A stretch of DNA of 52,887 nucleotides from NCBI GenBank assembly GCA_019233695.1, contig JAFAME010000330.1:1-52887 (forward strand), given 5' to 3'. This stretch comes from Methylobacteriaceae bacterium. GTDB lineage: Bacteria > Pseudomonadota > Alphaproteobacteria > Rhizobiales > Beijerinckiaceae. The notes under the pieces are model-generated. The model was given only the letters and a program-made list of their open reading frames with translations, had not been told where the DNA came from and did no database searches. The position numbers and the translations under genes are program-made. Below, piece by piece: positions 44,876 to 49,496 of this stretch. How positions within the stretch are numbered: position 1 is the stretch's first letter; each line of letters starts with the position of its first letter.

Positions 44876-46060
44876 GTGCTTGACGGCGTCAACGAACGGG
44901 AGGCGGTTTTCGCCCGTGCGGCAACGATACTTGCCCATGACGAGCGCTTCTCCGGCGATCCGGTCGTGCCGCCGATCTTCCAGACTTCGCTGTTCACGTT
45001 TGCGTCCTACCGCGACATGGAGGATGCGTTTGCCGGCCGTGTGCGCCGGCCGATCTACAGTCGCGGCGACAATCCGACCGTCAGGCACTTCGAGGAGCGC
45101 CTGGCGGCTCTCGAAGGCGCCGAAGCAGCGCGCGCCTTTTCCTCCGGCATGGGCGCCATCAGCGCCACCGTGCTTGCGTTTGCCGGCGCCGGCAGCCGCG
45201 TGGTTGCCGTGCGGCACGTCTATCCGGACACCTACCGTCTGTTCCAACAGCTCTGCCGCCGGCTGAGCATTTCCGTCGACTACGTCGATGGCGCGGATGC
45301 CGATGCCGTAGCCGCCGCCCTTCCTGGCGCGAGCCTCCTCTATCTCGAGAGCCCGACCTCGATGGTCTTCGAGGTGCAGGATCTTGAGCGGATCGCAACG
45401 CTTGCGCGGGCTGCCGGCGTCGTCACCATCATCGACAATTCGTGGGCAACGCCGCTCTTCCAGCAGCCGCTGCGCCACGGAATCGACCTCGTCCTCCATT
45501 CAGCTTCGAAATACATCGGTGGCCACAGCGACACGGTCGCGGGAATCGTGGCGGGCTCGGCCGCCCTAGTCGGGCGCATCAATGCCGAGACCTATTCCTA
45601 TCTCGGCGCCAAGCTCTCGCCGTTCGAAGCCTGGCTCCTGCTGCGGGGCTTGCGCACGCTGCCCCTGCGCATGCGCGCCCACGAGAAGAGCGCCGTCACG
45701 CTCGCCGAACGATTGAAGGGGCACCCGCAGGTCGTCGCCGTCCATCATCCGGCGTTTTCAAACCATCCCGGCCGCCGCACGCTCCTGGGATTTTCGGGGC
45801 TTTTCTCGTTCGAGGTCGGCGAGGCGATCGACATTGCGGCCCTTGTCGATGCGCTCAGATATTTCAAGCTCGGGGTCAGCTGGGGCGGACATGAAAGTCT
45901 CGCCGTGCCGGTTCAGGCCTCGATGGCGCAAACACCGAAGCTGAACGCGCAAGTGGCATTTGGGGTGTCGCCGCGCACCATCCGCATCTCGGTCGGACAC
46001 GAGGACACCGAAGACCTCTGGGCCGACCTTGCCAGAGCCTTAGACACGGCGCGACGCTGA
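44876..46060 (+). CDS. Transsulfuration-type PLP enzyme (cystathionine gamma-/beta-lyase family)
   Basis: 394 residues from a GTG at 44876 with GAGGAG nine bases upstream. Cys/Met-metabolism PLP family (fold type I): 'YSRGDNPTVRHFEERLAALEGAE' (in part), 'FSSGMGAISATVL', 'YLESPTSMVFEVQDL', 'TIIDNSWATPLFQQPLRHG' and the PLP-lysine motif 'HSASKYIGGHSDTVAG'. C-terminal 'RISVGHEDTEDLWADL' is normal. The family includes cystathionine beta- and gamma-lyases, O-acetylhomoserine sulfhydrylase and methionine gamma-lyase; sequence inspection cannot choose, though 'SPTS-M' and 'DNSWATP' resemble the MetC-like lyases. Its location before an ABC transporter may be fortuitous. Confidence 0.9.
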   Translation: MLDGVNEREAVFARAATILAHDERFSGDPVVPPIFQTSLFTFASYRDMEDAFAGRVRRPIYSRGDNPTVRHFEERLAALEGAEAARAFSSGMGAISATVLAFAGAGSRVVAVRHVYPDTYRLFQQLCRRLSISVDYVDGADADAVAAALPGASLLYLESPTSMVFEVQDLERIATLARAAGVVTIIDNSWATPLFQQPLRHGIDLVLHSASKYIGGHSDTVAGIVAGSAALVGRINAETYSYLGAKLSPFEAWLLLRGLRTLPLRMRAHEKSAVTLAERLKGHPQVVAVHHPAFSNHPGRRTLLGFSGLFSFEVGEAIDIAALVDALRYFKLGVSWGGHESLAVPVQASMAQTPKLNAQVAFGVSPRTIRISVGHEDTEDLWADLARALDTARR

Positions 46061-46103
46061 CTGGATCCTGATCTGGACAATGGTTCCACGAAACCGATTG
46101 CTT

Positions 46104-46184
46104 GTCATCCCGGAAGCAGCCCTTGCGGCTATCCGGGATCCGGTGCCAGATCCCGGCTCTCCGCTTCGCTTCGGCCGCGATGAC
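46104..46184. repeat. Imperfect palindromic intergenic repeat
   Basis: Begins GTCATCCCGGAAGCAG and ends CTTCGGCCGCGATGAC, with inner arms ATCCGGGATC / GATCCCGG. The two halves are an imperfect inverted repeat of ~36 bases each. It fills most of the space between the PLP-enzyme stop and the binding-protein start and could attenuate or end transcription. Confidence 0.7.
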
Positions 46185-46237
46185 ATAACAGGATTCGGAC
46201 CACCGAAAAACTCAATTTGACAGCAGGGAGGATGGAG

Positions 46238-47509
46238 ATGCGATGGACGACATATCTGATCGGCGCGGCGACGGGCCTGATCCTGTCGGCGCAGGCCGAG
46301 GCGGCCACCGTGCGGGTGGTCGAGGTGATCACCAGCCCGCCGCGCACCGACTTCCTCAAGAAGCAGTTCGCTGAATTCGAGCAGGCCAATCCCGGCACCA
46401 AGGTCGAGCTGATCTCGCTGCCCTGGGGGCAGGCGTTCGAGAAATTCCTCACCATGGTGCAGGCCGGCGACACGCCCGACATCGTCGAGATGCCGGAACG
46501 CTGGGTGGGGCTCTACGGCTCGAACGGCCAGCTTGAGGACCTGACCTCATACTTCAAGGACTGGCCGGACTACGCCACGCTAGGTGACCGCGCCAAAGAG
46601 CTCGGCTCGACCGTCAATGGCAAGCCGTACATGGTGCCTTACGGCTATTACATCCGCGCGCTCTTCTGGAACAAGAAGTTGTTCCAGCAGGCGGGCATCG
46701 GCGGGCCGCCCAAGACCGTCGACGACTTCGTCGCCGATGCCAACAAGATCGCAGCGCTCGGCAACGGCAAGACCGGCTATTGCCTGCGCGGCGCGGCGGG
46801 CGCCTTCGGCGGCATCCAGATCTTCATGGATACCTATGACGGCAAGCCCGGCTATTTCAACGCCGACGGCACCTCGATCTTCAACGAGCCCGGTGCGGTC
46901 AAGGGCCTGCAGATGCTCGCCGACCTCTACAAGTCGGGCGCTGCGCCCAAGGACAGCGTCGGCTGGGGCTTCAACGAGATCGTTGCCGGCTTCTATTCCG
47001 GCGCCTGCGCCATGCTCGACCAGGACCCCGATGCACTCATCGGCATCAAGGAGAAGATGGATCCGAGCGACTTTGCCGTCGCCCCGATGCCGCTCGGACC
47101 CGCCGGCAAAGCGTTTCCCTCCCTTGGCTATTCCGGCTGGGCGATGTTTTCGAACTCGAAGGTGAAGCCCGAGGCCTGGAAGGTCATCGCGTTCCTGACG
47201 TCGCCGAAGAACAATATCGAATGGTCCAAGTTCGTCGGCGTGATTCCGATCCACAACGGCGCCGACCAGGACGCGTTCTTCAAGACCGACCAGTTTGCCG
47301 GCTGGTTCACCGAGCTCAAGGACGCCGAGCACTTCGTCCTCGTGGTGCCGCCGACCTACCTCGAAAACCTCGGCGTGTTCTATGACCAGATGGTGCCGAA
47401 GGCCTACCAGCAGGTGCTGCTTGGCCAGCGGACGGCGCAGGATGTGGCCAATGAATGGGCGGCGTTCCTGAACAAGGAGCAGCAGGCCTATATGGCGAAG
47501 AAGAAATAA
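46238..47509 (+). CDS. ABC transporter solute-binding protein, family 1 (sugar)
   Basis: 423 residues from the ATG at 46238, six bases after GGGAGG. A signal peptide covers 1-22 ('MRWTTYLIGAATGLILSAQA'). The SBP_bac_1 fold shows 'LKKQFAEFEQANPGTKVELI', 'SLPWGQAFEKFLTMVQAGDTPDIVEMPERW' (in part) and 'YGYYIRALFWNKKLFQQAG' (in part), and late 'GWAMFSNSKVKPEAWKVIAFL' (in part). Such proteins bind mono- or oligosaccharides or glycerol phosphates. Two MalF/MalG-type permease genes follow, but a ~190-base structured repeat separates this gene from the first of them. No ATPase gene is in the cluster. Confidence 0.94.
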   Translation: MRWTTYLIGAATGLILSAQAEAATVRVVEVITSPPRTDFLKKQFAEFEQANPGTKVELISLPWGQAFEKFLTMVQAGDTPDIVEMPERWVGLYGSNGQLEDLTSYFKDWPDYATLGDRAKELGSTVNGKPYMVPYGYYIRALFWNKKLFQQAGIGGPPKTVDDFVADANKIAALGNGKTGYCLRGAAGAFGGIQIFMDTYDGKPGYFNADGTSIFNEPGAVKGLQMLADLYKSGAAPKDSVGWGFNEIVAGFYSGACAMLDQDPDALIGIKEKMDPSDFAVAPMPLGPAGKAFPSLGYSGWAMFSNSKVKPEAWKVIAFLTSPKNNIEWSKFVGVIPIHNGADQDAFFKTDQFAGWFTELKDAEHFVLVVPPTYLENLGVFYDQMVPKAYQQVLLGQRTAQDVANEWAAFLNKEQQAYMAKKK

Positions 47510-47519
47510 GGTCGTCGCG

Positions 47520-47708
47520 CACCTTCTCCCGCTCCGCGGGAGAAGGTGTCGGCGCGAAGCGACGACGGATGAGGGCGGTCGAGCCCCAGCGATGCTTCGA
47601 AAGCAGAACGGAACTTCAAGAGAGCATCCTCCGCGGGCCGGAGTGGGGTGGCGCGGGCCCTCATCCGTCCGGCTCCGCCGGACACCTTCTCCCACGAGCG
47701 GGAGAAGG
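47520..47708. repeat. Highly structured repeat element inside the ABC operon
   Basis: Four inverted repeats, all perfect: CACCTTCTCCCGC/GCGGGAGAAGGTG (13 bp, 3-base loop, 47520-47548); GACGGATGAGGGC (47564-47576) pairing with GCCCTCATCCGTC (47657-47669); GTCCGGC/GCCGGAC (47667-47683); CCTTCTCCC/GGGAGAAGG (47685-47708). The 5' and 3' hairpins share the CCTTCTCCC core. It begins ~10 bases after the binding-protein stop and ends 16 bases before the permease ATG. A role in transcript stability or attenuation is inferred. Confidence 0.8.
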
Positions 47709-47724
47709 GCGCGCACGACCTGAG

Positions 47725-48651
47725 ATGGTCGCGATCTCCTCCCTGACGTCCGACGTGCGTTCTCCGCCGCGCCGGCGGCTGGGCGATCTTCTCGAGCCTT
47801 GGTTCTACCTCAGTCCGGCGCTCGTGATGATTGCGCTGGTGCTCGTCGTTCCGGTGATCATCGGCATCGGCTATTCGCTGCGCAAATTCTCCGCCTTCCG
47901 TTCCGAATTCGTCGGCCTCGAACAATACCAGACGATGCTTTCCGACCCGGAGCTACGGCTGGCGCTCTGGAATACGGTGCTGTGGACCGCAGGCAGCGTC
48001 TTCTTCCAATTTTTCCTCGGCCTCGGCCTCGCCCTCCTTCTCAATCGGCCCTTCTTCGGCCGGCGTGTGGTCCAGGCTCTCGTATTCCTGCCGTGGGCCG
48101 TGCCGACGTTCCTCTCTGGCCTCACCTGGGCTTGGCTCTTCAATCCGGTCGTCGGGCCGGTGCCGCACTGGCTCCATGCCGTGGGCTTGATGAGCGAGCC
48201 GAGGAACATCCTCTCCGATCCGGCGACCGCCATGTGGGGCCCGATCATCGCCAATGTCTGGTTCGGGATCCCGTTTTTCGCCATCACGCTCCTGGCGGCG
48301 CTGAAGTCGATCCCGGGCGAGCTCTATGAGGCTGCAGCCATCGACGGCGCCAGCGCCTGGCAAGGCTTCACCAAGGTGACTCTGCCGTTCCTGGCCTCGA
48401 CCATCGCCATCACGGTGATGCTGCGCACGATCTGGATCGCGACGCTCGCCGATCTCATCTACGTCATGACGGCGGGCGGTCCCGCGGGGTCGACCGAGAC
48501 GGTCGCGACCTACATCTACGTCACCGCGTTCAAGTCCCTCGACAAGGGATACGCGTCGGCCGTCGCCTCCTTGCTCCTCGTGCTGCTTGTGCTTTATGCC
48601 GCCGGGCTGCTCTACATGCGGCGCCGGGCAACGCCGGAGGCCGAAGCATGA
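47725..48651 (+). CDS. Sugar ABC transporter permease (MalF/UgpA type)
   Basis: 308 residues from the ATG at 47725. About six membrane segments of BPD_transp_1, starting with 'LSPALVMIALVLVVPVIIGIGY' (in part), and the EAA coupling loop 'EAAAIDGASAWQGFTKVTLP'. The frame is open upstream through the repeat, but those residues are meaningless. It overlaps the next permease gene by four bases (ATGA), so the two halves of the membrane complex are co-translated. Confidence 0.95.
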   Translation: MVAISSLTSDVRSPPRRRLGDLLEPWFYLSPALVMIALVLVVPVIIGIGYSLRKFSAFRSEFVGLEQYQTMLSDPELRLALWNTVLWTAGSVFFQFFLGLGLALLLNRPFFGRRVVQALVFLPWAVPTFLSGLTWAWLFNPVVGPVPHWLHAVGLMSEPRNILSDPATAMWGPIIANVWFGIPFFAITLLAALKSIPGELYEAAAIDGASAWQGFTKVTLPFLASTIAITVMLRTIWIATLADLIYVMTAGGPAGSTETVATYIYVTAFKSLDKGYASAVASLLLVLLVLYAAGLLYMRRRATPEAEA

Positions 48652-49496
48652 TCGCCGGCCGTTCCGCCGTCCGTCGCGGGCTCGCCGAAGCTGGCGTCTA
48701 TGGTGCCATTGCACTTTATGTAGGCTTCGCGCTCTTTCCGATCTATTGGACGCTGAAGATTTCGGTCACGCCGGGCGAGCTCCTCTATCGCGAGGGGATC
48801 ACGGCTTGGCCGTCGTCGACGACGCTTGCCAACTATGGGCGGGTCCTGAGCGAGACCGATTTCCCGCACTATTTTCTGAACAGCGTGACCGTCTCGGTCG
48901 GGACGGCGGTCATCGTCACCCTCATTGCCTCTGCAGCAGGTTACGCCCTCTCCCGGTTTCGCTTCCAAGGCAAGGCCACGGTCGGATTCCTGCTGCTTCT
49001 GACGCAGACCTTTCCGCTGGTGATGGTCATCCCGCCGATCTATCGCGTCATGGGGCAGATCGGCCTCACCGACAGCCTGATCGGCCTCATCATCATCTAC
49101 ACCGCCTTCAACATCGCCTTTGCCACCTTCCTCATGCGCTCGTTCTTCGACGGCGTGCCGCGCGAACTCGAAGACGCAGCGATGATCGATGGCTGCACGC
49201 GGTTTACGGCGCTCCGCCGCATCGTCCTGCCGCTCACTTTGCCGGGGATGGGCGCGACGCTCGGCTTCGTGTTCACGGCCGCCTGGAGCGAGCTCCTCTT
49301 CGCGCTGATGCTGATCAATCAGGAGAGCAAGAAGACCTTTGCGGTCGGGCTCCTGACCTTCATCGGCAAGTTCGCCGTCGACTGGGGACAGATGATGGCC
49401 GCCTCGGTCCTGGCGCTGATCCCGGTGTGTATCTTCTTTGCCTTCCTGCAGCGCTATCTGGTGACCGGGCTGACGGCGGGGGCGGTGCGGGGGTGA
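48648..49496 (+). CDS. Sugar ABC transporter permease (MalG/UgpE type)
   Basis: 282 residues starting at an ATG within the end of the preceding permease gene. Six membrane helices and the EAA loop 'LEDAAMIDGCTRFTALRRIV' identify the second BPD_transp_1 subunit. The usual MsmK/UgpC-type ATPase gene is absent: the next gene is convergent and encodes a small coiled-coil protein, so the ATPase must be shared with another system or encoded elsewhere. Confidence 0.95.
   Translation: MIAGRSAVRRGLAEAGVYGAIALYVGFALFPIYWTLKISVTPGELLYREGITAWPSSTTLANYGRVLSETDFPHYFLNSVTVSVGTAVIVTLIASAAGYALSRFRFQGKATVGFLLLLTQTFPLVMVIPPIYRVMGQIGLTDSLIGLIIIYTAFNIAFATFLMRSFFDGVPRELEDAAMIDGCTRFTALRRIVLPLTLPGMGATLGFVFTAAWSELLFALMLINQESKKTFAVGLLTFIGKFAVDWGQMMAASVLALIPVCIFFAFLQRYLVTGLTAGAVRG

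Follow-up and report, generated by a model that had tools for sequence, protein, structure and literature searches.

Dispersed palindromic repeats between binding-protein and permease genes in ABC transporter operons of a Methylobacteriaceae bacterium

Introduction

In Escherichia coli, a REP element between malE and malF shields the upstream mRNA and favors an excess of the binding protein. Differential decay was reported for 47 of 390 analyzed E. coli operons; where these encoded ABC systems, it was the gene for the solute-binding protein (SBP) that was stabilized (PMC5927463). In Clostridia, stem-loops behind SBP genes are described as leaky terminators, in an article that also lists at least 15 E. 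coli cases (PMC9045158). With these two reports the principle is already in print: SBP stem-loops and stabilizing repeats are known, and what is newer in the present analysis is a possible repeated recruitment of dispersed repeats to the SBP-permease junction.

The locus considered here lies in a sugar ABC transporter operon of a Methylobacteriaceae bacterium (assembly GCA_019233695.1), on a 52,887-nt stretch (contig JAFAME010000330.1) that is referred to as a whole as the window. Like the malE/malF case, it has a dispersed palindromic repeat with a strong hairpin between the SBP and permease genes of a CUT1 sugar operon, but the repeat has no GTAG tag or RAYT link, is built from a two-hairpin unit and is known here from sequence alone. 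The SBP stem-loops of cellulolytic Clostridia are comparable in lying directly 3' of the SBP gene of an ABC importer and in being tied to SBP excess; those tested in PMC9045158 have U-rich tracts and act as leaky intrinsic terminators, whereas the hairpin of the window belongs to a dispersed repeat and is not followed by a U-tract.

Results

Gene calls were made with a small codon-usage gene finder and no annotation, so that start sites are approximate. The plus strand of the window encodes, in this order (44876-49496), a PLP-dependent (Cys/Met) enzyme (44876..46060), the SBP of a CUT1-type sugar ABC transporter (46232..47509; Pfam SBP_bac_1, 1.2e-45; SBP_bac_8, 1.7e-41; alternative start possible at 46217) and two permeases with the Pfam domain BPD_transp_1, one UgpA/MalF-like (47725..48651) and one MalG-like (48648..49496). 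The SBP stop codon occupies 47507-47509, and the ATG of the first permease, at 47725, coincides with residue 1, at which the tblastn matches of several orthologues begin. The PLP enzyme-SBP order recurs in records of Phyllobacterium, Sinorhizobium meliloti, Martelella, Rhizobium sp. and Pantoea. The order of all four genes is kept from Phyllobacterium to Pantoea, and relatives add a GntR-type regulator in front.

The earlier note on this DNA had reported four perfect inverted repeats between the SBP stop and the permease start, and these are exact to the base: two of 13 bp (47520-47532/47536-47548 and 47564-47576/47657-47669), one of 7 bp (47667-47673/47677-47683) and one of 9 bp (47685-47693/47700-47708). 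They are enclosed by two longer, imperfect pairs that the note did not contain (26 nt, 77%, 47509-47534/47696-47721; 16 nt, 94%, 47535-47550/47681-47696). As RNA, the entire palindromic region (47509..47721) is predicted to form one hairpin of ~210 nt whose minimum free energy is -141, where shuffles average -95.1 (SD 4.7; z -9.8; 0 of 200 shuffles equally stable), and a wider fold keeps the same hairpin core (z -7.1). The inner stem begins 10 to 12 nt past the SBP stop, while the 3' outer arm (47696..47721, plus strand) spans the expected ribosome-binding-site region and stops 3 nt short of the permease ATG. Nothing in Rfam reached the gathering score between 47000 and 48200; the best match, MIR1858 (31.8 bits versus a cutoff of 137), is taken as a generic long hairpin.

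The element is made of two facing copies of a palindromic unit of ~52 nt, laid out as hairpin 1 (CCTTCTCCC..GGGAGAAGG), TG, a hairpin 2 of variable sequence and then GGATGAGGGC. A covariance model of the unit (R1) places the first copy at 47522..47576 on the plus strand (71.1 bits) and the second, inverted, at 47657..47708 on the minus strand (77.7 bits), with an 80-nt spacer between them (47577..47656). A DNA search of the same genome gave 65 matches, of which two are near-full-length copies including the spacer (on contigs C16, 81%, and C194, 79%). The perfect hairpin CCTTCTCCC-N2..12-GGGAGAAGG occurs at 52 sites in the genome and the reversed control pattern at none; the hairpin is therefore not a product of chance. 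Model R1 found 108 matches in the genome at E<=0.01, palindromic echoes included. The count of copies and positions that the earlier note had proposed comes to 57 loci when these matches are merged by hand within 300 nt.

The hairpins of the repeat unit are maintained by compensatory changes. When 150 copies from two genomes were aligned, both sides had changed in compensation at 13 of 18 pairs, and 97.2% of cells were paired versus 84% in shuffles (0 of 500 as high), in an alignment that was fitted to the structure and is hence biased towards pairing. A first MAFFT alignment of 16 copies scored above all 500 shuffles, with three pairs changed on both sides. Dimer spacers fall into two sharp classes in genome G013 (18 to 26 and 52 to 61 nt; 33 of 37 dimers) and are broader in the genome of the window (55 to 90 nt in 19 of 25).

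Most clusters of the repeat lie in gaps between genes of the same strand, in the genome of the window (53 clusters: 29 same-strand gaps, 10 convergent, 4 divergent, 5 at contig ends and 5 inside called genes) as in G013 (52 clusters: 34, 9, 4, 0 and 5, respectively), for which genes were called with seeded training. Divergent gaps are avoided in both genomes: they hold 4 of 43 classed clusters but make up 36 of 101 other gaps of at least 100 nt in the former (p 0.001), and the corresponding figures from the same loci in G013 are 4 of 47 and 27 of 88 (p 0.005). Placement left out eight of the 57 loci (on C164, C307, C170, C297, C126, C472, C128 and C271) and, in G013, the matches at 2027815, 4563341, 4713549, 1536216, 4901702 and 2379207. 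Copies in same-strand gaps stand a median of 22 nt past the stop codon in either genome. A snug fit is also the norm for this repeat behind genes of all kinds, so that the close fit in the window is by itself no sign of function. A scan of 49 of the 50 genes upstream of a copy in the genome of the window (L099:2-3850 left out) showed that 41 are neither SBP_bac_1 nor NMT1 among the matches listed, and that one of these 41 matches Peripla_BP_5; the control gene sets held at least two Peripla_BP_4 in 98 genes, and at least one Peripla_BP_4 and at least one SBP_bac_1 in 88. The 50 upstream genes of G013 include no SBP among the matches listed, though a separate SBP_bac_8 search places one there. 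The idea that the 3' end of the element, GGGAGAAGG, serves as the Shine-Dalgarno sequence of the next gene was rejected as a rule, only 7 of 63 same-strand copies ending 0 to 13 nt from the start codon.

Searches with SBP_bac_8 and SBP_bac_1 identified 40 SBP genes in the genome. Four are truncated at contig ends (C457, C479, C248 and C465:22401), which leaves 36 assessable genes; two of these are followed by a gene on the opposite strand, and for one the contig stops before any further gene, giving 33 same-strand junctions. The repeat occupies the gap behind 6 of the 36 (C272, the contig of the window, C190, C465, C209, C16 and C199, the last with its copy 111 nt past the SBP stop), and all six gaps are followed by a BPD_transp_1 permease gene. 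Without the window, 5 of 35 SBP genes carry the repeat against 58 of ~5,139 genes (1%; binomial 4.5e-5), a base rate estimated from 50 genes with the repeat behind them plus 8 unexamined loci and from the gene density of 23 sampled contigs. Two further copies have the gene of an NMT1-type binding protein upstream and that of an ABC ATPase or permease downstream. In genomes G148 and G019, with 109 SBP matches in all and the loci of 30 examined, the repeat is found in 3 of 28 same-strand SBP junctions (L245, L248 and L233, the last being the orthologous operon). The link with SBP genes is not equally clear everywhere, since G013, of similar copy number, has the repeat behind only one of eight SBP_bac_8 genes.

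Compared by perfect stem length, SBP gaps of the genome are rich in hairpins of any kind. A stem of at least 9 bp is present in 13 of 25 SBP gaps of at least 60 nt versus 6 of 73 same-strand gaps of that length on the 23 sampled contigs (Fisher 1.1e-5; 3.0e-5 without the window), a comparison that excludes L086, where the contig ends and there is no SBP gap. Among gaps of at least 100 nt the proportions are 13 of 23 and 4 of 55; the regular series of 20 contigs alone gives a stem in 4 of 60 sampled gaps, and shuffled SBP gaps give one in 11 of 460 (23-gap set, without C381 and C322). Five of the 13 stem-bearing gaps contain the present repeat (L069, which is the window, L077, L078, L082 and L100), two others, both followed by permease genes, a related-looking CCCTCTCCCC..GGGGAGAGGG / GGTGAGGGG dimer (L070 and L072) and a further two other repeat-like hairpins (L076 and L085), while four are unlike the rest (L079, L081, L214 and L224). 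The dimer of L070 and L072 may be a distant relative of the repeat, given the weak matches of both to R1 (30.8 and 24.9 bits). This second dimer type lies on C432 (L070 2599-3006) and C487 (L072), and in L070 its arms are separated by long other sequence. SBP gaps of at least 60 nt number 9 in G148, where 2 have a stem of at least 9 bp, and 7 in G019, where 4 do; both stem-bearing gaps of G148 owe their stem to the repeat studied here.

The comparison of orthologous operons, which share both SBP and permease, covered 39, among them the window and some enterobacterial near-duplicates. The gap measures at least 55 nt in 27 of them, and 20 of these 27 hold a stem of at least 8 bp (12 of 16 operons from Alphaproteobacteria and 8 of 11 from enterobacteria, counting the window and the near-duplicates), versus 3.1% and 0.5% of shuffles of the alphaproteobacterial and enterobacterial gaps, respectively. 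In 19 of the 20 the stem begins 7 to 44 nt past the stop; in L046 it begins at 113, the longest perfect stem being in the second unit. R1 units are confined to the operons of the window and L046, and the other orthologous hairpins are thus unrelated to the repeat. In the remaining 12 of the 39 operons the gap measures 18 to 42 nt and no stem reaches 8 bp, and a hairpin is therefore not required. The comparison of orthologues with and without the insert, which the earlier note had suggested, thus cuts both ways: many have unrelated hairpins close behind the stop, but the 12 short gaps have none. The SBP tree joins the window to L044 (100/99) on two long branches, and L044 has a different hairpin; L046 groups with L048 and L050 (99/96), whose gaps of ~30 nt lack the repeat. 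Judged from these sequences, two separate gains of the repeat at the same junction would be the simplest reading, and operon transfer or losses are possible instead.

Discussion

By analogy with malE/malF, the repeat behind the SBP gene probably protects the SBP mRNA and raises the level of binding protein above that of permease. The earlier note had carried the malE/malF logic over to this operon; the repeat in five other SBP-permease gaps, the abundance of hairpins in SBP gaps and the orthologous hairpins speak for it, and the stemless operons count against it. In the proposed sequence of events, a head-to-head dimer of a palindromic repeat dispersed in Hyphomicrobiales would have been inserted, or have expanded, between the SBP and permease genes. 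Presumably transcribed with the operon, it would form a very stable hairpin just behind the SBP stop, and after cleavage of the mRNA in its permease part, 3'-5' exonucleases would halt at this hairpin, so that the SBP mRNA would outlive the permease mRNA. The 3' arm would also hide the permease start region, which lies within the outer arm, and reduced permease translation could thus add to the effect. The predicted outcome is an excess of binding protein.

A neutral or selfish repeat, tolerated at one stop codon or another and without effect on expression at this locus, is rather unlikely, although it has several observations in its favor. Copies stand behind many unrelated genes, their distance from the stop and close fit are the same elsewhere, and G013 shows no clear excess at SBP genes; the SBP excess in the genome of the window and the unrelated hairpins at the orthologous site would, however, be unexpected under pure neutrality. 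More doubtful still is a leaky terminator or attenuator, at which RNA polymerase would partly stop and so transcribe less of the permease genes, possibly in a Rho-dependent variant. The clostridial SBP stem-loops work in this way (PMC9045158), and PMC5082802 cites E. coli BIMEs as attenuators of transcription, but no terminator-like site was found at the element, whose tail is TCGGCGCG, and the 8 nt after each of the 13 SBP-gap stems contain at most four T. The balance favors a barrier to RNA decay over intrinsic termination because no U-tract follows, here or after the other SBP-gap stems of the genome, and one stem-loop stripped of its U-rich tail failed to stop transcription according to PMC9045158.

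It is very improbable that the hairpin instead stalls ribosomes within 15 nt of the stop and cuts SBP output through trans-translation. The inner stem does lie within that distance, and such an effect was reported for E. coli REPs (Liang 2015, cited in PMC5082802); the stem is at least 17 nt from the stop in 10 of the 13 stem-bearing SBP gaps, however, so that closeness to the stop is not a shared feature, and stalling would reduce the very subunit that is needed in excess.

If protection of the SBP mRNA is indeed the role of the repeat, the malE/malF case is widened from a single operon in E. coli to several in one alphaproteobacterium, which suggests that dispersed repeats are repeatedly used to set subunit ratios. 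More tentatively, and with a little less than even confidence, SBP-permease junctions may be recruitment sites for mobile hairpin repeats, at which selection for SBP excess would retain whichever palindrome lands; a single genome would then draw on several repeat types and unique hairpins at the equivalent junctions of its operons, and the same family would have been acquired separately in another genus at the orthologous site. A literature search that covered few subscription papers turned up no account of this repeat at the junctions behind SBP genes. The natural presence and absence of the element among orthologous operons provide ready controls.

The view that the repeat belongs to a family unrelated to E. 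coli REP holds, and the repeat is not of the GTAG/RAYT type. A GTAG tag at the stem foot is absent from the consensus of 27 units, and the only Y1_Tnp match of the draft genome (96.5% complete), at C142:13900-14190, has no unit in its locus (L257) or on C142. The alternating orientation of E. coli REP/BIME is found here too, as +- pairs in 24 of 53 clusters of the genome and 37 of 52 in G013. Nor does the unit match the CGTC superfamily, which, by the definitions of both superfamilies in PMC3733652, has a CGTC-type tag, a stem of 8 to 9 bp opening with A-T pairs and a CCA-like tail; stem 1 opens with CCTTCTCCC and the tail is GGATGAGGGC. As described in PMC3733652 and PMC5082802, GTAG and CGTC REPs and Br-REP1/2 are likewise short intergenic palindromic repeats, many of them in inverted pairs, but they differ from the present repeat in tag motifs and printed consensus sequences. 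Another parallel may be the RIME and AB/C intergenic palindromes of Rhizobium and Sinorhizobium (Osteras 1995, as cited in PMC2573895 and PMC2873474), palindromic mosaics of Hyphomicrobiales, which are likened here by description and not by RIME1/2 sequence. The repeat is perhaps of this rhizobial intergenic-mosaic kind. Two units (hairpin 1, TG, variable hairpin 2 and GGATGAGGG) are present on S. meliloti pSymB (L258:2438-2549), in a record that carries no RIME annotation.

In the DNA search, 20 of 41 genomes (that of the window, the same family and the same order) gave a match. None of the best matches listed outside the genome of the window was full length including the 80-nt spacer. Carriers of the unit are S. 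meliloti pSymB, Sinorhizobium sp. K101, Methylobacterium bullatum, Pleomorphomonas and Xanthomonas sacchari. The plasmid of the last, a gammaproteobacterium, has several closely spaced two-hairpin units (L262 2453-2755). Within the genome of the window, repeat dimers flank both sides of an MTTB (trimethylamine-methyltransferase) gene on C473 (L097 3174-3359 and 4930-5123), and on C155 an open reading frame of ~309 nt lies between two opposite single units (L098 4029-4080 and 4527-4578), an arrangement that resembles a dimer enclosing a small gene.
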